The notes under the pieces were generated by a model, which saw only the letters and a list, made by a program, of their open reading frames with translations, did no database searches and was not told where the DNA came from. This document shows, piece after piece, positions 1-49,470 of a stretch of DNA of 64,000 bases (positions within the stretch are counted from its first letter, which is position 1; each line of letters opens with the position of its first letter). This DNA is from Dugong dugon (Eukaryota; Chordata; Mammalia; Sirenia; Dugongidae), in contig CM057472.1 in assembly GCA_030035585.1 (NCBI GenBank), positions 92,129,601-92,193,600 on the forward strand, written 5' to 3'. A program made the translations under genes and the position numbers.

Positions 1-124
1 CATAGTGACCCTGTAGGACAGAGTAGAACTGCCCCATAGGGTTTCCAAGCAGTGACTGGTGAATTCGAACTGCCAACCTTTTGGTTAGCAGCTGAGTTCT
101 TAACCACTGCACCACCAGGGCCCC
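1..124 (-). mobile_element. AfroSINE, cut by the window edge
   Basis: The reverse complement starts with the AfroSINE head (ggggccctggtggtgcagtgg), continues through the tRNA-related part 'gctgctaaccaaaaggtt', and leaves the window inside the 'tactctgtcctacagggtcac' block. The 3' tail lies before base 1. These are tRNA-derived, non-autonomous retroposons restricted to Afrotheria, and this copy is one basis for the taxonomic call. Confidence 0.92.
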
Positions 125-184
125 TTAAGGAATACAGACCTTGAAAATTAACCAGCCATACATATTAGATAACTAGAACTTTCT

Positions 185-1426: not shown

Positions 1427-1441
1427 AAAAGACATAGGTTT

Positions 1442-3060
1442 GGAGACTTCCGGCAAAATGGTGCTCTAGGCAGAAGCACCACACTGTCCTTCCACAGCAA
1501 AGATCTGAAAAACTAAGGCAAACAGAGAAAACAGTAATCCTGAAGTCCTAAAACATCAAATGAAGAGATAAAGAACTCAGCCCAGCACAAAATGGAGTGA
1601 GAAAACTGACAGAGAATGGAGAGCAAGGAGAGATTCATGCAGAGGTCCCCTATCAGCTAATGCAGCATGGATCTGCCATCTTGGACTCCTATCGGAGACC
1701 AGAAAATAGGTGGTATGAGAAAGCAGCTTCACGGAGCTTGCAGCGGGAGACAAAACAACTGGTAATTTGCAATATATGCTTTCCCACCCCCACTCTTCTT
1801 CACCCCCACTTCTCCTCCTCTGCTTCCCACATCCAGAGTCTCTTGTCCGGGAAGCACCGGCTGCTTGGATTCCATCCCCCTGTACTGGCTGGCTCCCTGA
1901 ATGCCATTTGTCTGCTGCTGGTGTTGTTTTTTTGTCCGCTTCTTTTGATTTCTTACTTACCTCTCACCAACTACCCCTCCTTTCGCTCAAATACCTGGCT
2001 CCTTGCGCCATCTTTGCTTCTTCCTGAGGGGCTGCAGAGCTCTGTTCAAGTATGGAACTGTTTCCTGGTGTGGGCTGCCACGCTGGTGGGATCCCAGGGC
2101 TTTTGTTTGTTTGTTTTTGAATTGCTTGTTTGTTTTCTTTTCCTTTTCTTGAGCTGGGAGCCCGTTCTGGCTGGGCAGTGCTGTGCGGCTTGGAACCTAC
2201 CCCCTTGACTCACGCAGACATGCAGAAGGATCCTTGAGGGCATTTCTCTTTTTGCGTTTTTTTTTTTTTTTTCCCTTGCTTTTTTGGGGGGGTGCCTTGT
2301 TCTTTTTTTTCTTTAATTTGTTTTCTTTTCTTTTCCGTCTTTTACCTTTTTTGTATTTCTTCATTACTCAGTTTCTCATCTCTCTATACCTTCCATCTCT
2401 TTCTGTTCCCTGAATACCTGGTGCTGAATACCTCTACACTTTCTAGCCAGGCTGTACTGCAACACCTGAGAACAACTTCCCCAGACCTTGGGATATCTTG
2501 GAGCTTTGCTGTTCTTTTTCCTTTCTAATTTTTATTTATCCTTTCTTTTCGTTTCTTTTTCTTCTTCCTCCCCTTTTTGTTTTTCTCCATTTTGTAGTCT
2601 CTCATCTCTCCACTCCAATGGCAAGCTCCCCTAGCACTCTTTTTTGTTTGTTTGTATGTTTTTGGCTCCAGTTCATCTCTCCTCTCTCCCATATCCATCT
2701 TAGCTCCACACATAACAATATCCCCCCTACATCCTGCTTACCTGCACCATGCACTTAACATCACACCACCAAGCAGCACAGGCATGGCCTACTGGAACCT
2801 GCCCTGCACTGATTACCGACCCACCCTGCTAGCTGTAGTAAGTGGCACGAACAACCCACCCCAGTAACTCCTCTTCAGCTAGACCTGCCCTGCTGTACAA
2901 TACTGAGTGACTGACCCTGCCAGTTGGAGAAGGAGGCGAAAAGTATCGTGCCAACAGATGAGTAAACAACAAAGAACACAAAGCCTGCCTACTCAGACAT
3001 AGCCAAATTTAAAAAAAGGATAAAACAAACAAATCTACAGTCAATTTAAAAAAAAAAAAA
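1442..3060 (+). promoter_or_regulatory. 5' UTR/promoter region of L1 copy 1
   Basis: About 1.6 kb lies between the TSD and ORF1. By analogy with other mammalian L1s it should hold the internal RNA polymerase II promoter, although no core motif is obvious. Two features stand out: a block at about 1770-2050 that occurs once here but twice in tandem in copy 2, and a very pyrimidine-rich sense strand from about 2100 to 2660 with several T-runs. It ends in an A-run near 3050. Confidence 0.7.
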
Positions 3061-3124
3061 AAAAAACTACTGAACACTCCAAAGACAGCAGACAATATCA
3101 AAACATTTACAAAAACAGGACAGG

Positions 3125-4035
3125 ATGTTTCCGGTAGGCATCCAAAATAAAACACCAGATGACATTCCAGTGGAAGAAAAGGCACTAGAACTACCTGATA
3201 GGGAATTCAAACCTCTAATACTCAGAATTATCCCAGAGTTGAAGCAAAAAGCAGACAAAAATGAGGAAAAAAATAGACAAATTCATGAGAAAGGAAGACA
3301 AATTCATGGAAAATACAGAGGAAAAAATTTGAAGAATTCAGGAAAATAATGCAGGAATAAATGCCAAAATAAATTCACAACTAGAGATTATACAAAAACA
3401 GAATTAGAAATCCAAAAGATAAACAACAAGATTTCAGAAATGGACGGTATCATAAAAGGGCTGAGGAGCAGATTTGAAATGGTGGAAGACAGGATCATTG
3501 GAATTGAAGTCAAACACTTGGATACAACTCTGTTTGAGGAAAACTCAGAAAAAAGAACAAAGAAAAATGAAGAGACCATAAGAGTTATGTGGGATACAGT
3601 CAAAAGCAAAAATTTGCTAGTGATTGGAGTTCCAGAACAGGGGAGAAAACAGAAAACACAGAGAGGATCATTGAAGAACTGCTGACAGAAAACTTCCCCA
3701 ATATCATGAAAGATGAAAAGCTGGCCATCCAAGATGCTCAACAAACCCCATATAGGATAGACCCCAAAAGAAAATCACCAAGGCATATCATAATCACACT
3801 CACCAAAACCCAAGACAAACGAAGAATCCTGAGAGCAGCTCATGAAAAACAAGAAGTCACATACAGAGGAGAAACAATAAGACTAAACTCAGATTATTTG
3901 GCAAAAACCATGCAGGCAAGAAGGCAATGGGATGACACACATAAAATCTTGAAAGAAAAAAATTGCCAGCCAAGAATAATATATCCTTCAAAACTCTTTC
4001 AAATATGATGGTGAAATTAGGACATTTCCAGATAA
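3125..4035 (+). pseudogene. L1 ORF1 (RNA-binding chaperone), broken
   Basis: L1 ORF1p coats the L1 RNA as a trimer and acts as a nucleic-acid chaperone. Three open pieces follow one another: 3125-3349 (Lys/Glu-rich, coiled-coil-like N-terminal part), 3440-3685, and 3589-4008 in a shifted frame. The last piece carries the recognisable RRM and C-terminal domain: a segment like ENFPNIMKDEKLAIQDAQ, then RHIIITLTKTQDKRRIL, then TMQARRQWDD and the CQPRIIYPSKL end. A frameshift near 3640 joins the second and third pieces, a stop follows 3349, and another shift near 4000 removes the last residues. The true start is uncertain; the ATG at 3125 aligns with the corresponding ATG in copy 2. Confidence 0.85.
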
Positions 4036-4567
4036 ACAGAAATTAAGGGAATACGTAAAAGTCAAACCAAATATACAAGAATAATTAATGGGATTTCTTC
4101 AATCTGAGAACAAACAAATTCAGCTCAGTGACAGAATCTAGGATGCAGGATTATACCAGCCAGATACCAATCTAGGAAATGAACTCTCAAGGACTATCCA
4201 AAACCAAAAAGAAATACAACAGGGAATCAGAGCAGTTAATCAGTAAATGACAACAACATCAGAACAATAAAAGAGAGAATAAACGGTTCAGGAATAGAAC
4301 CTTCTAATGGAGAGGAAGTCAAGATGATTCCAAGTAATAATAGACTGCTTCAAACTTAGAAAGATAAGGGTAAATTTCATGGTAACCACAAAGAAAGTTA
4401 ACAAACATACTCATAAAAATAAATAGGAAAAACATAAAGTCTCTGCAAAAACAAAACCTACAAAAACAAAAGAAATGAAAAAATAAATCCAGAAACAAAA
4501 GTAACTCAGCACAGGAGAGTAAGAAGAACAAAGAAAATGTCAGCATCACAAAAAAAAATACTACAAA

Positions 4568-7500
4568 ATGAGAGCAACAAACTCACATCTATCAAGAATT
4601 ATACTGAATATAAATGGACTCGATGCACGAACAAAGAGACGGAGAGTGACGAAATGGATGAGAAAACAGGATCCATCAATATGCTGTCTATAAGAGACAC
4701 ACCTTAGATACAAAGATGTGGATTTATTAGAAGTCAAAGGTTGGAAAAAAAATTTATAAAGCTAACAACTACCAGAAAAGAGCAGGAGTGGCTATACTAA
4801 TCTCAGATAAAATAGACTTTAAAATGAAATCCACCATAAAAGACAAAGAGGGACACGATATAATGATTATATAATGATCTGTCATGAAGACATAACTATA
4901 ATAAACATCTACACACCAAATGACAGGGCTCCAAAATACATAAAACAAACTCTAACAACACTGAAAAGAGAAATTGATAGTTCCACAATAATAGTAGGAG
5001 ACTTCAACACACCACTCTCAGTAAAGGACAGAACAACTAAAAAGAAACCCTGCAAAGATACAGAAGACCTAAAGGGCACAATCAGCCAACTTGACCTCAT
5101 AGACATATATAGAACACTCTATCCAACAGCTGCAAAGTACACATTCTTTTCCAATGCACATGGAATGTTCTCCAGAATAGACCACATCTTGGGCCACAGA
5201 ACAATCCTCAACAAGATCCAAAACGTTGAGATAATTCAAAGTATCTTCTCTGACCACAATGCCATCCAGGTAGAAATTAACAGAAAGAGCAAGGAAAAAA
5301 AAAATCAGTTACATGCAAACTGAATAATACCCTGCTCACACATCACTGGGTAATAGAAGAAATCAGAGATGGAATCAAAATATTCCTAGAATCAAATAAG
5401 AATGAAAACACATCATGCCAAAACCTTTGGGACACAGCGAAGGCAGTCCTCAGGACAATTTATAGCAATAGATGCACATATCAAAAAATAAGAAAGGGAC
5501 AAAATCAAAACATTAACTACCCAACTCAAACAAATCAAAAAAAGACAGCACTAAAAGCCCACATCCACGGGAAGAAAGGAAATAGTAAAGATCAGAGCAG
5601 AAATCAATGAACTAGAGAACAGAAAAACAATAGAAAGAATCAACAAAACCAAACGTTGGTCCTCAGAAAGAATCAACAAAATCGATAAATCACTGAACAA
5701 ACTGACAAGAGAAAAACAGGAGAGGATGCAAATAACTCAAAGAAGAAATGAAAAGAGTGACATTACAACAGACCCAACTGAAATAAAAAGGATCATAACA
5801 GAATATTGTGAAAAACTATACTCCAACAAATTTGAAAACCTAGAGGAAATGGATAAATTTCTAGAAACACGCTACCTACCCAAACTACAATAAAGTGATG
5901 TTGAAAATCTGAACAGACCCATAAGAAGAGAAGAGATTGAAAAAAGGTAATAAAAAAAACTCCTGACAAAAAAAAAGCCCCAGCCCAGATGGCTTCACTG
6001 GAGAATTCTTCAAAACATTTACAGAAGAGCTTGTACCAGTACTACTCAAGCTATTTCAGAGCATAGAAAAGGAAGCAACACTTCCAAAATCATTCTTTGA
6101 AGCCAGCATAATGCTGATACCAAAACCAGGCAAAGACACCACAAAAAAAGGAAATTATAGACCAATATCTCTCATGAATATAGATGCAAAAATTCTCAAC
6201 AAAATTCTAGCCGATAGAATTCAGCATCATATCAAAAAAATAATACACCACGACCAAGTAGGATTCATACCCGGTATGCAAGGATGGCTCAACATTAGAA
6301 AATCAATCAATGTAATCCACCACATAAATAAAAGGAAAGAAAAGAATCACATGATCATCTCAACTGATGCAGAAAAGGCATTCAACAAAGTCCAACACCG
6401 ATTCGTGATAAAAACTCTCAATAAAATAGGTATAGAACAGAAATTTCTCAACATAATAAAGGGCATCTATGCAAAACCAACACGTAACATCGTTCTTAAT
6501 GGAGACAGGCTGAAAAATTCCCCCTGAAAACAGGAACACAACAAGGATGCCCTTTATCACCACTCCTATTTAACACTGTGCTGGAAGTTCTAGCTAGAGC
6601 AATAAGGCAAGAAAAAGAAATAAAGGGCATCCAAACTGGTAATGAAGATGTTAAACTGTCCCTGTTTGGGGATGATATCATACTATACATAGAAAATCCT
6701 AAAGACTCCATGAGAAATCTACTAAAACTAATAGAAAGATTCAGCAGAGTAGTAGGATACAAGACAAACATAAAAATCAGTTGGCTCCCTATACACTGAT
6801 AAGGAGAACGATGAAAAGGAAATCAGGAAAACAATACCGTTTATAATAGCCCCTAAACAAATAAAATACTTAGAAGTTAATCTAACCAGGGATGTAAAAG
6901 ACCTATACAAAGAAAACTACAAAACACTACCGCAAGAAACCCAAAGGGATCTACATAAATGGAAAAAAATAGCATGCTCATGGATAGGCAAACTCAACAT
7001 TGTGAAAATGACAATTCTACCCAAAGCAATTTACAAATACAATGCAATCCCAATCCAAATAGCAACAACATTCTTCAAAGAGATGGAAAAACTGATCATT
7101 AACTTTATATGGAAAGGGAAGAAGCCCAGAATAAGTAAAGTACTACTGAACAAGAAGAATAAAGTTTGAGGACTCACACTACCTGACCTCAGAACCTACT
7201 ATACAACTACAGTAGTCAAAACCGCCTGGTACTGGTACAACGACAGATACGTTGACCAATGGAACAGAATTGAGAACTCCAGATGTAAATCCATCCACCT
7301 ATGATCACCTGATCTTTGACAAGGGCCCAAAGTCCATCAAATGGGGAAAAGACAGTCTTTTTAACAATCAGTGCCAGCAAAACTGGATATCTATCTGCAA
7401 AAAAATGAAACAGGACCCATACCTCATGGCATATACAAAAACTAATTCAAAATGGATCAAAGACCTAAATATAAAGCCAAAAACTCTGAAGTTCATAGAA

Positions 7501-8385
7501 GAAAAAACAGGATCAATACTAGAGGCCCTAATGTACGTCATTAACAGGATACAAACCATAACCAACAACACACAAACCCCAAAAGATAAGCTAGATTGCT
7601 GGAATCTTCTAAAAATGAAACACGTATGCTCTTCAAAAGACTTCACCAAAAGAGTAAAAAGAGAACCTACAGACTGGGAAAAAATTTGGGGACTATACAA
7701 GTCAGACAAAGGTCTAATCTCCATAATATACAAGAAAATCTAACACCTCTACAACAAAAAGACAAGTAATCCTATTAAAAAATGGTCAAAGGAAATGAAC
7801 AGACATTTCACCAAAGAAGAGATTCAAGCGGCCAACAGACGCATGAGGAAATGCTCATGATCGCTAGCCTTTAGAGAAATGCAAATTAAAACCACAATGA
7901 GATACCATCTCACCCCGGCATTACTGGTACAAAAGAAAAACACTGGAAATAGCAAACGCTGGAGGGGCTGCGGGGAGATCGGAACTCTTATGCACTGCTG
8001 GTGGGAATGCAAAATGGTACAACAATTTTGGAAAATGATATGGCTAGAAAGCTAGAAATAGACATGCCATACGATCCAGCAATCCCACTCCTAGGAATAC
8101 ATCCTATAGAAATAAGAGTCGTCACTGGAATAGACATGTGCACACCTATGTTCATAGCAGCATTGTTCACAATAGTAAAATGATGGAAACAACTCAGATG
8201 CCCATCAACAGATGAATGGATAAACAAACTATGGTACATACACACAATGGAATACTACACAACGAGAAAGAACAACAATGAATCTGTGAAGCATCTCATA
8301 ACATGGATGAACCTGGAGGATTTTATGCTGAGTGAAATAAGTCAATCACAAAAGGACAAATATTGTATGAGACCTCTATTGTAAA
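4568..8385 (+). pseudogene. L1 ORF2 (endonuclease/reverse transcriptase), broken
   Basis: ORF2p nicks target DNA and reverse-transcribes L1 RNA at the nick. I place the start at ATG 4568, whose frame reads MRATNSHLSRIILNINGLDA, the typical L1 endonuclease N-terminus. The QETH endonuclease motif is destroyed by a CAA-to-TAA stop at 4691-4693. The rest of the endonuclease is open at 4874-5323 (DFNTPLSVKDRTTKK, then SRIDHILGHR, SDHNAIQVE). Reverse transcriptase pieces are at 6111-6527 ([38 protein letters not shown]) and 6578-6799. The catalytic FADD motif reads FGDD at 6665-6676. The C-terminal piece at 7252-7743 and the Cys/His knuckle at about 7968-8010 ([14 protein letters not shown], His kept) follow. 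Many stops and frameshifts make it certainly dead. Confidence 0.92.
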
Positions 8386-9554
8386 AACCCATGAAAAAGT
8401 TCACACACAAAATGTAACAATCTTTGCTGGTTACCAGGGATGGGAGGGGTAGGGGGGAAATACTAAATAGGCAATAGATAAGTGGTACCTTAGGTGAATG
8501 GTGAGACAGTACACAATACTGGGGAAACCAGCACAACTTGAACAAGGAAAGCTCATGGAAGCTCCATAGACACATCCAAACTCCCTGATGGACCCAATTG
8601 CTGGGTGGAGGGCTGTGGGGACCATGGTCTTGAGGAACATCTAGTTCAATTAGCATAACACAGCTTATAAAGACAATGTTCTACCTTCTACCTTGGTGAG
8701 TGGTGTCTGGGGTCTTTAAAGCCTGTGAGCAGCCATCTAAGATACTCCACTGGTCTCATCCCTTTGGGAGCAAGGGAGAATGAAGAGAACAGGATACAAG
8801 GAAAAGATTAGTGCAAAGGACTAACGGACCACAGCTACCAAGGCCTCCACTGGGCTGAGTCCAGGACAGCTAGATGGTGCCCAGCTACCACCACTGACTG
8901 CTTTGACCTGGATCACAACAGAGGGTTCTGGACAGAGCTGGAGAAGAATGTAGAACAAAATTCTAACTCACAAAAAAAAGAGACCAGATTTACTGGCCTA
9001 AAGAAGACTGGAGAACCTGAGAGTATGGCACCCAGACACCCTTTTAGCTCTGTGGTGAAGTCATTTCCGAGGTTCATCGTTCAGCCGGGGAGTGGACAGC
9101 CCCATAAAACCAAATGGGACTAATGAGGCACAGCAGTCCAGGGACAAGGGCTAGAAGGCAGAAGGGGATTGGAAATCTGGTGATAGGGAACCTAAGGTTG
9201 AGTAAGGTTAGTGTTGATGTGTTGTGAGGTTGTTAACCATTGTCATAGGGCAACATGTGTGCTGTTTAATGAGAAACTATTTTGTTCTTTAAACCTTTGT
9301 CTAAAGTGAGAATAGCAGCACAGTTGGAAGAGCATAGTCGATGTCACTGAACTGTGTGTGTAGAAATCTTTGAAATGGTGTGTCTTTGGCTATGTATATT
9401 TTTACCAAAAAAAAAAAAGGTCAAGAAGGGAGAGGGTTGACATGTCATGGGGTTGTTAACCGATATCGTAAAACTATATGTGTACTACTGGCTCATGAGA
9501 AACTATTTGTTCTGTAAACCTTCACCAAGTACAATAAAAAATAAATAAAAATAA
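8386..9554 (+). other. 3' UTR of L1 copy 1 with duplicated tail module
   Basis: About 1.17 kb of non-coding 3' UTR. The end has an X-B-X layout. Module X (9211-9312, containing 'ggttgttaacc' and 'gagaaactatttt') is followed by module B (9313-9405, 'gatgtcactgaactgtgtgtg...') and an internal 13-base A-run (9406-9418). A second X copy follows at 9433-9538, ending in AATAAA-like words. Copy 2 shares this layout and copy 3 does not. Confidence 0.8.
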
Positions 9555-9569
9555 AAAAGACATAGGTTT

Positions 9570-9720
9570 AGATCCTGGCCCTTCTTAGTGTTTTTAAGCT
9601 GTAGTTTTATTCATGCATGCAATGAAGATAATCGTAGTTAACCTCGTAAAATTGAAATAAAGAAAAAGAGATCAAGGATTTTGCAAAATACCAGACAGTT
9701 GGTAATGCTAACATAAAATG
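9570..9720 (+). mobile_element. MIR-like SINE fragment
   Basis: Diverged words in MIR order: 'cctggcccttct', 'aatgaagataatcgtagttaacctcgtaaaattg', then 'ccagacagttggtaatgct', corresponding to the MIR core and 3' end. L1 copy 1 appears to have inserted at its edge. Divergence is high, so the call is tentative. Confidence 0.35.
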
Positions 9721-34190: not shown

Positions 34191-34898
34191 TTTTGTGCCC
34201 CCCATTATAAGGACTCAAGACTCTACCCTTTAAATATCTAAACATATTTGTGTGTCTGCAAGTTTTCCTTTGGACAAGTATTGCCATTTTTAACATACAA
34301 ACTAGTATGTCCCTTTCTCCAACCTCACCTACAGTGACTGTTTCCCTTATAAATATTTAGATATTTTTTGATGTTAGTTTCTTTGGGACCTACAGTTTTC
34401 CTCCTTGCCTGTACTGGCCTTCTGAGTTATTTTGGCTGCCAGGCTTGCTGCTGTACTTGTTTACATGTCAAAGTTACTATGCTTTTAACCTCAAAGTCAC
34501 TGGTAACACTTCCAGGTCTCCGAAATCTGTTGCTCCCAGTTGCAAAGGCACATGGGATTTTTTTTTTTTTCCATTTTATGTATTTTATTTGTATCACCAC
34601 TGCTCAGGTATTTGATCAGTAAAACCGAAGAAAACCCCAACATTTTCACTGCATTTGAATTGGAGCATGTTCTTGTAGGATTCAAACTCTTTGGGTCCAT
34701 TTCATACTTACTTTTCCCAATGCCTAATCCAGCTCATTTTTGGCCACTTCCTTTTGCTAGAATAACTTATTCATTCATTCACGGTTTTTAAAATTGTCTG
34801 CCAGGCCCTATACTATCTTCATCCCGCTCATCAGCCTTTTTTCCTACTCTTTCCCTCACTCCACCCCGCTCTAGCCATGATAACCTTCTTGCTGTTTC
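34191..34898. other. No recognised feature
   Basis: Chance frames only; the ORF at 34368-34622 has no domain. It ends at the poly(T) of the antisense L1. Confidence 0.5.
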
Positions 34899-34907
34899 TT
34901 TTTTTTT

Positions 34908-36120
34908 GTATTTTATTGTACTTCAGGTGAAGGCTTACAGAACAAATAGTTTCTCATGAAACAGTAGTAAACATGTTGTTTTATGACATTGCTTAACAAC
35001 CCCACAACATATTAACCCTCTAAATTCTCAACCTTTTTTTTTTTTTTTTGATGAAAATACACATAGCCAAAGATACATCGTTTCAAAAATTTCTACATAC
35101 ACAGTTCAGTGACACTGACTATGCTCTTCCAGTTGTGCTTCTATTCTCACTTAAGATGAAGGCTTACAGAACAAAATAGTTTCTCATTTAACAGTTACTA
35201 CAAATGTTACACTATGACAATGGTTAACAATCTCACAACACATCAACACCATCCTTACTCAACCTTGGGTTCCCTATCACCAGCTTCTTTGTCCCCTTCT
35301 GCCTTCGGGCCCTTGTCACTGGACTCCTGTACCTCGTTACTCTCATTTGGTTTTACGGGGCTGTCCACTCCCAGGCTGAACAGTGAACCTCGGAGCTAAC
35401 TTCACCACTTAGCTAAAAGGGTGTCTGGGGGCCATACTCTCGAGGTTTCTCCAGTCTCCTATAAGCCAGTAAATCTGGTCTTTTTTTTTGTGAGTTAGAA
35501 TTATGCTCTACATCCTTCTCCAGCTCTGTCCAGAACCCTCTGTCGTGATCCTGGTCAGAGCAGTCAGTGGTGGTAGCCGGGCACCATCTAGCTGTACTGG
35601 ACTCAGTCCGGTGGAGGCCTTGGTAGCTGCGGACAATTAGTCCTTTGGACTAATCTTTTCCTTGTATCCTGTTCTCTTCATTCTCCCTTGCTCCCGAAGG
35701 GATGAGACCAGTGGAGTATCTTAGATGGCCGCTCACAGGCTTTTAAGACCCCAAACACTACTCACCAAGGTAGAATGTAGAGCATTGTCTTTATAAGCTG
35801 TGTAATGCCAATTGAGCAAGATGTTCCCCGAGACCATGGTCCCCACAGTCCTCCGTTCAGCAATTCAGTCCCTCAGGGAGTTTGGATCTGTCTGTGGGGC
35901 TTCCATGACTTTTCCTTGTCCAAGTTGTGCTAGTTTCCCCTGTATTGTGTACTGTCTCACCCTTCACCCAAGATACCACTTATCTATTGCCTATTTAGTA
36001 TTTCCACCCCACCCCTCCCATCCCTGGTAACCAACAAAGATTGTTACATTTTGTGTGTGAACTTTTTCATGCGTTTTTACAATAGAGGTCTCATACAATA
36101 TTTGTCGTTTTGTGATTGAC
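34908..36120 (-). other. 3' UTR of L1 copy 2 with duplicated tail module
   Basis: The same X-B-X layout as copy 1, read on the minus strand: X (about 35155-35245), module B ('gtcactgaactgtgtatgtag', 35060-35150), an internal T-run on the + strand (35034-35049), then the terminal X (34921-35030). Confidence 0.8.
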
Positions 36121-45739: not shown

Positions 45740-46246
45740 TTAGTACAGAAAAAAAATCAGTTAAGTGAATTAAAAGACAAGCCAAAGACTGAGTGAAAAT
45801 ATTTGCAAGGTGTAGGTCTCATAAAGAACTTGCACCCAAAATATACAAAAAACCTCTCACAGCTCAATAACAAGAAAATGGGCAAGAGATCTAAACAGAA
45901 ACCTCACCAAAGAAGATACGCTATGCAGATGGCAAATTGGCAAACGAAAAGATGTTCAGCCTCATATCTTACTGAGGAATTTCAAATTAAATCAACAGTG
46001 AAGTACCTCTACACCTTTATTAGAATGGCTAAATCCAAAACACTGACAAAATCAAATGCTAGTGAGGATGTGGAACAACAGAAACTGTCATTCATTACTG
46101 GTGGGCCTGCAAATGGTACAGCCACTTTGGAAGACAGTCTGGCCGTTTCTTACAAAGCTAAGCATAGGCTTACAATACAGTTTAGTAATCAACCTCCTAG
46201 ATATTTACCCTTTTAGTTGAAAGTCTATGTCCACTTAAAAACCTGC
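45740..46246 (+). mobile_element. Old L1, left part (split by L1 copy 3)
   Basis: L1M-type ORF2 end: 'aaagacaagccaaagactgagtg', 'aaaacctctcacagctcaataacaag', 'ttactgaggaatttcaaattaa', 'ctggtgggcctgcaaatggtacagcc', then 'gaaagtctatgtccacttaaaaacctgc', where it breaks off. It resumes at 49009. Confidence 0.8.
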
Positions 46247-48722
46247 CCAGATCTAACCAGAGATGTAAAAGACCCACACAAAGAAAACAACAAAACACTA
46301 CTGCAAGAAAACAAAGTAGGTCTACATAAATGGAAAAACATACTATGCTCGTGGATAGATAGACTCAACTTTGTGAAAACATCAATTCTACCCAAAGCAA
46401 TCTACAAATACAGTGCAATCTTAATCCAAATACTAACAACATTCTTTAAAGAGATGGAAAAACTAATCATTAAATTTACATGGAAAGGGAAGAAGCCCTG
46501 GATAAGTAAAGCACTATTGAAGAAGAAGAGTAAAGTAGGACTTGCACTGCCTGACCTCAGAACCTACTATACAGCTAAGGTAGTCAAAACAGCCTAGTAC
46601 TGGTACAATGACAGATACGTTGACTAATGGAACAGAAATGAGAACCCAGATGTAAATCCATCCACCTATGGTTACCTGATCTTTGACAAGGGCCCAAAGT
46701 CCATCAAATGGAGAAAAGAGAGTCTTTTTAACAAACAGAGCTTGCAAAACTGAATGTCCATCTACAAAAAAATGAAATAAGACCCATACCTTACACTATA
46801 CACAAAAACTAATTCAAAATGTATCAAAGACCTAAATATAAAAACCAAAAACTATAAAGATCATAGAAGAAAAAATAGGATCAATGCTAGAGGCCCTAAT
46901 ACACTGCATTAACAGGATATAAACCATAACTAACAACATACAAACTCCAGAAGACAAGCTAGATGACTGGGATCTTCTAAAAGTTAAACACTTATATTCA
47001 TCCAAAGACTTCACCAAAAGAGTAAAAAGAGAACTTACAGACTGGTAAAAAATTTTGGCTATAACAAATTTGACAAAGTTTTAATCTTTGAAATCTACAG
47101 GAAAATTCAACACCTCTAAAACAAAAAGACAAGTAATCTAACTGAAAAATGAGCAAAGGAAATGAGCAGACACTTCACCAAACAAGACATTCAAGCAGCT
47201 AACCGACACATGAAGAAATGCTCACAATCACTAGCCATTAGAGAAATGCAAATCAAAGCCACAATGAGATGCCACCTGACACCGGTATTACTGGCATGAA
47301 TCAAAAAAAACAGAAAATAACACATGCTGGAGAGGCTGCGGGGAGATTGGGACTCTTATGCACTACTGGTGAGAATGCAAAATGCTATTACCATTTTGAA
47401 AAACAATATGGTGCTTCCTTAGAAAGCTAGAAATTGACATACCATATGATCCTGCAATTCCATTCCTAGAAATATATCCTAGAGAAATAAAAGTCATCAC
47501 GCGAATAGATATATGCACACCCACGTTCATTGCAGCATGTTTACAAAGCAAAAAGATGGAAACGACCTAGATGCTCATCAGTAGATGATGGATAAACAAA
47601 CTATGGTACATACACACAATGGAGTACTATACAATGATAAAGAACCATGATGAATCTGTGAAGCATCTCACAACATGGGTGAATCTGAAGTGCATTATGC
47701 TGAATGAAATAAGTGAATCACAAAAGGACAAATATTGTATGAGACCACTACTATAAAAACTCATGAAAAGGTTTACACACAAAAAGAAACAATCTTTGAT
47801 GGTTATGAGGGAGGGGAGGGATAGGGATGGAAAAACACTAAATAGACAATAGATAAGTGGTAAATTTGATGAAGGGTAAGAAAGTACACAATACTGGGGA
47901 AGCCAGCACAACTTGTCCAAGGCAAGGTCATGGAAGCTCCACAGACACTTCCAAACTCCCTGAGGGATGGAATTACTGGGCAGGGCTGTGGGGACCATGG
48001 TCTCGGGGAACATGTAGCTCAATTGGCATAACATAGTTTATAAAGAAAATGTTCTACATTCTACCTTGGTGAGTAGCTTCTGGGGTCTTAAAAGCTTCTG
48101 AGTGGCCATCTAAGATACTCCTCTGGTCTCACCCAATCTAGAGCAAGGGAGAATGAAGAAAACCAAAGACACAAGGGAAAGATTAGACCAAATGACTGAC
48201 GAATCACAAGTACTACAGTCTCTACCAGACTGAGTCCAGCACAACTAGATGATGCCCGGCTACCACCACTGACTGCTCTAACAGGGATCACAATAGAGGG
48301 TCCTGGAGAGAGCTGGAGAAAATTGTAGAATAAAATTCTAACTCACACACAACAAAAAAAGACCATACATACCGGCCTGACAGGGACTGGAGAAACCCTG
48401 AGAGCATGGTCCCTGGACACCCTTTTATCTCAGTAATGAAGTCACTTCTGAGGTTCATCCTTCAGCCAAAGATTAGACAGGCTCATAAAACAGAATGAGA
48501 CTAAAGGAACACACCAGCCCAGAGGCAAGGACTAGAAGCCAGAAGGGGACAGGAAAGCTGGTGATTGGGAATCCAAGGTTGAGAATGGGGGAGTGTTGAC
48601 ATGTCATGGGGTTGGTAACCAATGTCACAAAACAATGTGTACTAATTGTTTAACAAGAAGCTACTTTCTTCTGTAAACCTTCATCTAAAGTACACTAATA
48701 AAAAAAATAACAAAAAAATAAA
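46247..48722 (+). mobile_element. 5'-truncated L1, copy 3, nested in an old L1
   Basis: It begins inside ORF2 ('ccagatctaaccagagatgtaaaagaccc', equivalent to about 6880 in copy 1) and runs through ORF2 and the 3' UTR. ORF2 is disrupted: in the knuckle region near 47355 the Trp-Trp pair is followed by a stop. The 3' UTR has a single X module (about 48590-48700), without module B. TSD aaaaacctgc: 46237-46246 and 48999-49008. The second TSD copy lies 280 bp beyond the L1 end (next entry). Confidence 0.92.
46253..47740 (+). pseudogene. L1 ORF2 C-terminal part, broken (copy 3)
   Basis: The clearest open stretch is about 46253-46597, with [28 protein letters not shown] and [11 protein letters not shown], the region after the reverse transcriptase. 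Stops and shifts follow. Confidence 0.8.
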
Positions 48723-48980
48723 TAAACTCAAAGCCAAGATTTGAAACAGGAAAAAAAAATAAAAAGAAATCAGGAGGAAAGAGGAGTATCAGTTATTGAT
48801 TTTAAGAGGACTGCCCCTGAATCACTCTAATCAGGGTGTTGGCAAGTTTTTTGGAAAACTTGAATTTATTCCACTTCAAATGCCTGTTCCACCAAAGGCC
48901 ATTTTGTTAGTGCCCACATGATTACTAAGGAACTTTGCTCTTATTCCCGATTTGAAGAATAAACTATTGTTATCAAAATT
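48723..48980 (+). other. Probable 3'-transduced flank of L1 copy 3
   Basis: After the weak L1 poly(A) region (about 48697-48722) come ~258 bp of non-L1, non-repetitive sequence. It has its own AATAAA (48958-48963), then a pure A-run of about 22 from 48981, and then the second TSD copy (48999-49008). The old L1 resumes directly after that. The layout fits L1 transcription reading through its own signal to a downstream one in the source locus. No ORF or known repeat was recognised in it. Confidence 0.75.
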
Positions 48981-49008
48981 AAAAAAAAAAAAAAAAAAAA
49001 AAACCTGC

Positions 49009-49470
49009 ACAGAAATGGTTATAGGGGCTTGATTCATAGCTTCCAGAAGTTAGAAGTAACCAAGATGTCCTTCAATAAGTGAATGGATAATCAAACTGTG
49101 ATGCATCTATACAATGGAGTATTATTCAGAGGTAAAAGGAGACAAGCTATAGAGCCAGGGCAAGACGTGGAGGAAATATTTATGCATATTTTTAAGTGGA
49201 AGAAGCCAGACTGAAACAGCTACAGTTTGTATGATTCCAACTACATGACATTCTGGAAAAAGTGAAACTATAAAGGCAAGGAAAAGAGTGCTTGTCAGGG
49301 GTTTCGGAAAAGTGAAGGGGATGAATAGGTAGAGTACAGAACATTTTCAGGGCAGTAAAACTATAATACCATCATGGTGGATACTTGACACGTGTTTGTC
49401 AAAACTCAGGACTGTACAACACAAACAGTGAACTCTAATGTAAACTATGAACTTCAGATAATAGTAAGGG
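49009..49470 (+). mobile_element. Old L1, right part
   Basis: It resumes with 'acagaaatggttataggggcttgattcatagc' and goes on with 'agtaaccaagatgtccttcaataagtgaatggataa', 'acaatggagtattattcag', 'gacattctggaaaaagtg' to 'gaactctaatgtaaactatgaac'. This is the regular end of L1M ORF2 and 3' UTR, continuous with 45740-46246. Confidence 0.8.

Follow-up and report, generated by a model that had tools for sequence, protein, structure and literature searches.

As shown in Table 1, L1 copy 3 of the window (C14:92129601-92193600; the window is the whole 64-kb stretch of DNA analysed) is followed by two successive sequence tags that match two different contigs of its own genome, and it was probably formed by two-generation ("multigenerational") L1 3′ transduction through L1 copies since lost, which is the most likely reading of its structure. 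The L1 body passes into an A-rich tail 1, a 30-bp tag 1, an A-rich tail 2, a 211-bp tag 2 and a final A-run, in that order. This arrangement, with two tags from two loci and a tail of its own for each, is the one expected of a multigenerational event. The second A-tail begins within 10–30 nt past the poly(A) signal of the flank, as in 3′ transduction, and the L1 and its flank are jointly enclosed by a duplication at an endonuclease (EN)-like site. The structure, the outer duplication and the poly(A) signals of both tags are direct observations; the distance from AATAAA to the tag end is 24 nt for tag 1 and 17 nt for tag 2, both normal.

Table 1. Features of the insertion and of the interrupted L1 (window coordinates).
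Feature	Position	Strand	Remark
Old interrupted L1, 5′ part (ORF2 region)	45767..46236	+	Joined-flank alignment
Left target-site duplication AAAAACCTGC	46237..46246	+	EN site TT/AAAA
L1 copy 3, 5′-truncated in ORF2, through 3′ UTR end	46247..48696	+	83% to copies 1 and 2
A-rich tail 1 of L1	48697..48726	+	Last 6 bases (AATAAA) also match C10
Tag 1, 30 bp (24 bp beyond A-rich tail)	48721..48750	+	Matches C10:113772167-113772196 (+)
A-rich tail 2: 17 A, one T, one G (19 bases)	48751..48769	+	
Tag 2, 211 bp	48770..48980	+	Matches C9:82208065-82208276 (-), 89%
AATAAA, 17 nt before poly(A) junction	48958..48963	+	Present at C9 too
A-tail 3, 18 A outside duplication	48981..48998	+	
Right target-site duplication AAAAACCTGC	48999..49008	+	
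Old L1, resumed part	49009..49234	+	Joined-flank alignment

The borders of the insertion could be fixed from the target site and from the interrupted element. Exactly two exact matches to AAAAACCTGC were found in the 64-kb window, the left and the right duplication, while the expected count was 0.27 and at least two matches were obtained in 2 of 100 shuffles. With TT directly before the left copy, the nick site reads TT/AAAA and agrees with the EN consensus in 6/6 positions; a single outer duplication at an EN consensus site thus encloses the L1 and both tags. The older L1 fragment around the insertion has the same orientation as copy 3. When its flanks were joined and aligned with the ORF2 region of L1 copies 1, 2 and 3 of the window, the alignment ran gapless across the junction, with 63% identity to copy 2 over 45767..49234. 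Since the joined flanks align without a gap and AAAAACCTGC occurs exactly twice, we regard the insertion borders as secure. An earlier note on this DNA had described copy 3 as nested in an old L1 that resumes right after the second duplication, and the duplication as recurring only there; both statements were borne out, as was the position given for AATAAA (48958). Its other statements about the 3′ end had to be revised. The 3′ UTR does not end near 48722, as it had claimed; the L1 body stops at about 48696, followed by the A-rich tail up to 48726. The final A-run, put at about 22, is present and counts 23 A (48981-49003), the last five of which lie within the AAAAACCTGC duplication. What had been taken as ~258 bp of unique sequence (48723-48980) has no second copy within the window beyond short A-rich or weak matches, but it is composite, consisting of two tags and A-rich tail 2.

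The body of copy 3 was recognized by its homology to the other L1 copies, which begins at 46251; the preceding four bases (46247-46250, CCAG) remained unaligned. Its ORF2 start peptide matched five distinct PDB sequences (best E 1e-32), four of them named LINE-1 ORF2 protein and one RNA-directed DNA polymerase. A Pfam search with the copy 3 ORF2 peptide gave no match; pieces of copies 1 and 2 matched RVT_1 or endonuclease families.

Candidate sources of the tags were sought in the genome of the window itself (3,158,355,915 bases, 196 contigs) with a similarity search that scores only the best candidates and skips simple repeats, so that more distant copies could be missed. With 48723-48980 as query, two matches were reported, the window itself and C9:82208066-82208284 on the minus strand, the latter with 89% identity and covering only positions 40-257 of the query. 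The C9 sequence continues beyond the cleavage point without an A-tail, and we therefore consider C9 the genomic parent of tag 2 and not another retrocopy. A plain source of this kind, lacking a tail, is what 3′ transduction predicts, and it was observed at C10 as well as at C9. No sibling insertion carrying tag 2 was present among the genome matches reported (C9 and self only), an 86-base query spanning tail 1, tag 1 and the start of tag 2 matched only itself in the genome, and an exact 20-mer of tag 2 had 0 matches in viral contigs. Within 30 kb around C9, no place matched the tag 1 24-mer at up to 5 mismatches. Upstream of the tag 2 parent, at a distance of some hundred bases, lies a sequence that we take to be MIR-like (C9:82208604-82208724); it showed no match to tag 1 at up to 5 mismatches.

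Tag 1 is short, and its 24-mer was searched in the genome as a pattern with up to 3 mismatches. Nine places were obtained, vs. one for the reversed control pattern. Besides the window itself they comprise C10:113772173, which has 1 mismatch, a place with 2 mismatches and six places with 3. By arithmetic under equal base frequencies, the seven weaker matches correspond to ~0.01 chance matches at 1 mismatch, and because so few are expected we assigned tag 1 to C10 as its source. Together with its flanks this match covers 32/34 bases, among them the AATAAA directly upstream; each tag thus has its match in the genome. No sibling insertion with tag 1 was found at up to 3 mismatches in this genome-wide search. 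By eye, C10 and several of the other 24-mer places resemble what we presume to be the ancient MIR repeat, a likeness tested with a short piece of the consensus only.

We then looked at whether an L1 lies at either source by searching with L1 copies 1 and 3 of the window. No L1 homology was detected in 10 kb around the C10 source, and the nearest upstream of the C9 source ends 11 kb off. In the assembly, neither source lies directly 3′ of an L1, and no intermediate L1 bearing tag 1 is seen at the second locus, C9, which is an empty site. The earlier note had proposed as a check that the segment should match directly downstream of another L1, which failed at both C9 and C10, and had expected that the segment could trace the parent L1. 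With no L1 at either source, the parent cannot be named from the assembly. Its claim of read-through transcription with mobilization of source flank fared better: the flank lies inside the outer duplication and its sources were matched in the genome, but it is probably not one flank. The source boundaries were also compared with the EN consensus. If tag 2 starts with AAAC, the C9 boundary agrees with TT/AAAA in 3/6 positions, a value of at least 3 being reached by 30% of nearby positions, and this start requires 3 mismatches in the first 8 bp (p 0.04 at the tag's own divergence). If tag 2 starts with TCAG, the agreement is 1/6. The C9 boundary is thus a poor endonuclease site. For C10 the agreement is 4/6 at best, a value of 4 or more being found at 9% of the background positions of the C9 stretch.

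From the tags and their sources we infer that L1 copies once stood at both C10 and C9. Assuming such lost L1 alleles, L1 3′ transduction is the most likely mechanism for copy 3, though not proven membership of that class. In a first step, an L1 at C10 would have been located just upstream of the AATAAA in the old repeat-like sequence; its transcript would have ended 24 nt past this signal and been copied into C9, giving the order tail 1, tag 1 and tail 2. In a second step, the C9 copy would have been transcribed through its own tail to the AATAAA lying ~190 nt further in the C9 flank. The RNA, presumably cleaved 17 nt past this signal, would have been inserted by target-primed reverse transcription (TPRT), with 5′ truncation, into the TT/AAAA site of the old L1. 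Neither the C10 nor the C9 copy of the L1 would ever have become fixed, and both are absent from the assembly.

Ages were estimated for tag 2 and for copy 3 itself. Over 215 sites, tag 2 is separated from C9 by 15 transitions and 8 transversions (K2P 0.117), that is 0.058 per side if the change is shared equally and ~0.08 with a two-to-one split. Among the GC-changing differences, 15/21 have GC at C9 and AT in the window (p 0.08), or 13/19 when the first 12 bases of tag 2 are left out (p 0.17), a bias that only hints at more change on the window side. For copy 3, L1 sequences were sampled from 20 10-kb stretches placed at round coordinates of two contigs, from other extracted stretches and from the window. 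Eight of the 16 matches of at least 250 bases were combined with copy 3 into a tree of nine L1 copies; the remaining eight, being different or shorter pieces, were not included. In this tree copy 3 had a terminal branch of 0.085 (0.076 without CpG sites), which is an upper bound on its age. Changes along copy 3 at codon positions 1/2/3 amounted to 0.090/0.100/0.133 (929 sites) and, in a second frame region, to 0.098/0.061/0.130 (489 sites); position 3 shows a weak excess, and the branch may partly predate the insertion. The ages of copy 3 and tag 2 are compatible with one event, and they also leave room for a second event soon after the first.

That second event would be required if the 3′ end had been built up at the site itself. 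The L1, with or without tag 1, would have inserted first, and a 5′-truncated, polyadenylated C9 RNA would later have been placed in its A-tail in trans by the L1 machinery, with an all-A duplication. This is unlikely, yet it accounts for several observations: no L1 was found at C9, the C9 boundary is not EN-like, and a duplication of nine A with one later G would be invisible. A-tails also provide TT/AAAA-like targets. Nevertheless, AAAAAGAAA, the bases just left of tag 2, has no exact repeat after the tag 2 tail, so that a second duplication would be AAA only, or decayed. Moreover, Pfam revealed no coding domain in the C9 translations, no other retrocopy was among the genome matches reported, and the ages do not make tag 2 younger.

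We regard as still less probable, indeed improbable, that one TPRT event produced a three-template chimera by template jumping, with reverse transcription starting on a poly(A)+ C9 RNA and passing to the poly(A) end of C10 RNA and on to the poly(A) end of L1 RNA. Every piece indeed ends at a poly(A) end, the absence of L1 at either source would be explained, and boundaries unlike EN sites would be natural. Such a course nevertheless requires two jumps together with priming in trans. In chimeras of L1 with foreign RNA, the available part of PMC13174262 places the foreign RNA at the 5′ side of L1, which is weak evidence against it because the study defined its insertions as 5′ of L1. Least of all do we expect the model of the earlier note, in which one 3′ transduction carried along a single contiguous flank of a source that is now lost or unassembled: it fits the one outer duplication and the one final poly(A) signal, but read-through of one flank is very improbable because the tags match different contigs with an A-rich tail of their own between them, and C9 does not continue into tag 1 (30 kb, up to 5 mismatches).

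Other origins of the tags were considered as well. Splicing was not retained as the source of the joint between tag 1 and tag 2, given that the two match different contigs and that, by eye, no pyrimidine tract adjoins the C9 boundary. Five C9 translations with X for stop codons (three frames over 5.2 kb including tag 2, and two of the three over the next 6 kb upstream) contained no Pfam domain, and Rfam gave no family on the genomic stretches L003, which holds the C9 site, and L016. A C9 locus lacking Pfam or Rfam matches is as expected for a non-genic flank. On the window side, Rfam returned nothing at gathering thresholds for 42001-64000, a 25-aa frame of tag 2 matched nothing in PDB or Pfam, and six peptides from other tag 2 frames had no match in Pfam. 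Among these six, a 52-aa peptide gave a weak PDB match to the RNA-binding domain of hnRNP H/F (6 chains, best E 0.071). Two tag 2 frames padded with X to fit, a post hoc choice, lowered E to 0.0018, while the second frame alone gave nothing. The hnRNP H alignment score of tag 2 was 64, and unchanged when frameshifts were allowed, vs. a largest value of 40 among 240 other pieces of the window; the domain had, however, been chosen as the best of PDB before it was scored against these controls. The C9 parent scored 41, just above the largest control and far below 64. The likeness is lower in the parent and seems to have grown by decay; we take it as probably due to chance and set aside a protein origin of tag 2.

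Serial 3′ transduction is a known process, and copy 3 would be a well-preserved but ordinary example of it. In the available part of PMC13009371, a human L1 cascade runs from chrX to chr15 to chr11, with the first tag retained and a second acquired from the intermediate insertion. Both this cascade and copy 3 carry two successive 3′ tags; in the human case the intermediate insertion is known, whereas for copy 3 no L1 was found at either source and the event is old. The same text gives 248 of 349 transductions (71%) as shorter than 100 bp and describes "proxy elements", truncated L1 copies carrying a tag whose source is not represented in the reference. Copy 3 resembles these in that it is truncated and the assembly lacks its tagged source L1, but for the human proxies, as described there, the true source was identified, while the source L1 of copy 3 is not seen at all. 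According to the accessible portion of PMC12350158, 466 of 5,311 polymorphic L1 insertions (8.8%) in 1,019 human genomes carry a transduction, mostly 3′. The ordinary partnered form described in that portion shares with copy 3 the order of L1, tail, flank with poly(A) signal and second tail within one outer duplication; it differs in having one tag, where copy 3 has two from two places. The L1 chimeras with mRNA, small RNA or Alu in the part of PMC13174262 at hand likewise join a foreign transcript to L1 inside one duplication, but the foreign piece lies 5′ of L1, the side studied, and in copy 3 it lies 3′. A missing donor L1 is not unheard of, since PMC4862182, in the part available, reports source loci in non-human primates without a clear full-length donor. 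Among the literature titles listed, none names a serial transduction in an afrotherian.

If the two-step reading is true, a single truncated L1 preserves the route that its lineage took over three contigs. Two insertions on that route would have no other trace found in the assembly, and tags of this kind allow unfixed L1 sources to be reconstructed. Should template jumping be true, the polarity of the chimera would be the reverse of that described in the available part of PMC13174262. Under either reading, both candidate source loci (C9 and C10) are now named.

The 3′ ends of neighboring L1 copies were also compared. Copies 1 (9180-9556, +) and 2 (34896-35290, -) have a composite 3′ end, made of a 3′ UTR unit, a ~100-bp linker ending in an A-run, and a second copy of the 3′ UTR end that is 62% and 70%, respectively, like the first. 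The same order was seen in stretches L027, L031 (two copies, second unit shortened) and L034 (one copy), and a single 3′ UTR unit in copy 3, L028 and L022. The composite end looks like a subfamily trait. Linker-like sequence without a second unit was present at L025:4890-5000, with AATAAAAAATAAAA near its end, at L034:5311 and at L033:9979, where the end of the stretch cuts the sequence off; the subfamily may thus have taken up an older L1-type 3′ end as its linker. Copy 1 (window 1430-9570) looks full length and, by eye, has the duplication AAAAGACATAGGTTT on both flanks. At window 1-125 we noted a tRNA-derived repeat, presumably AfroSINE-like, and pieces related to it occur in the C9 stretch.
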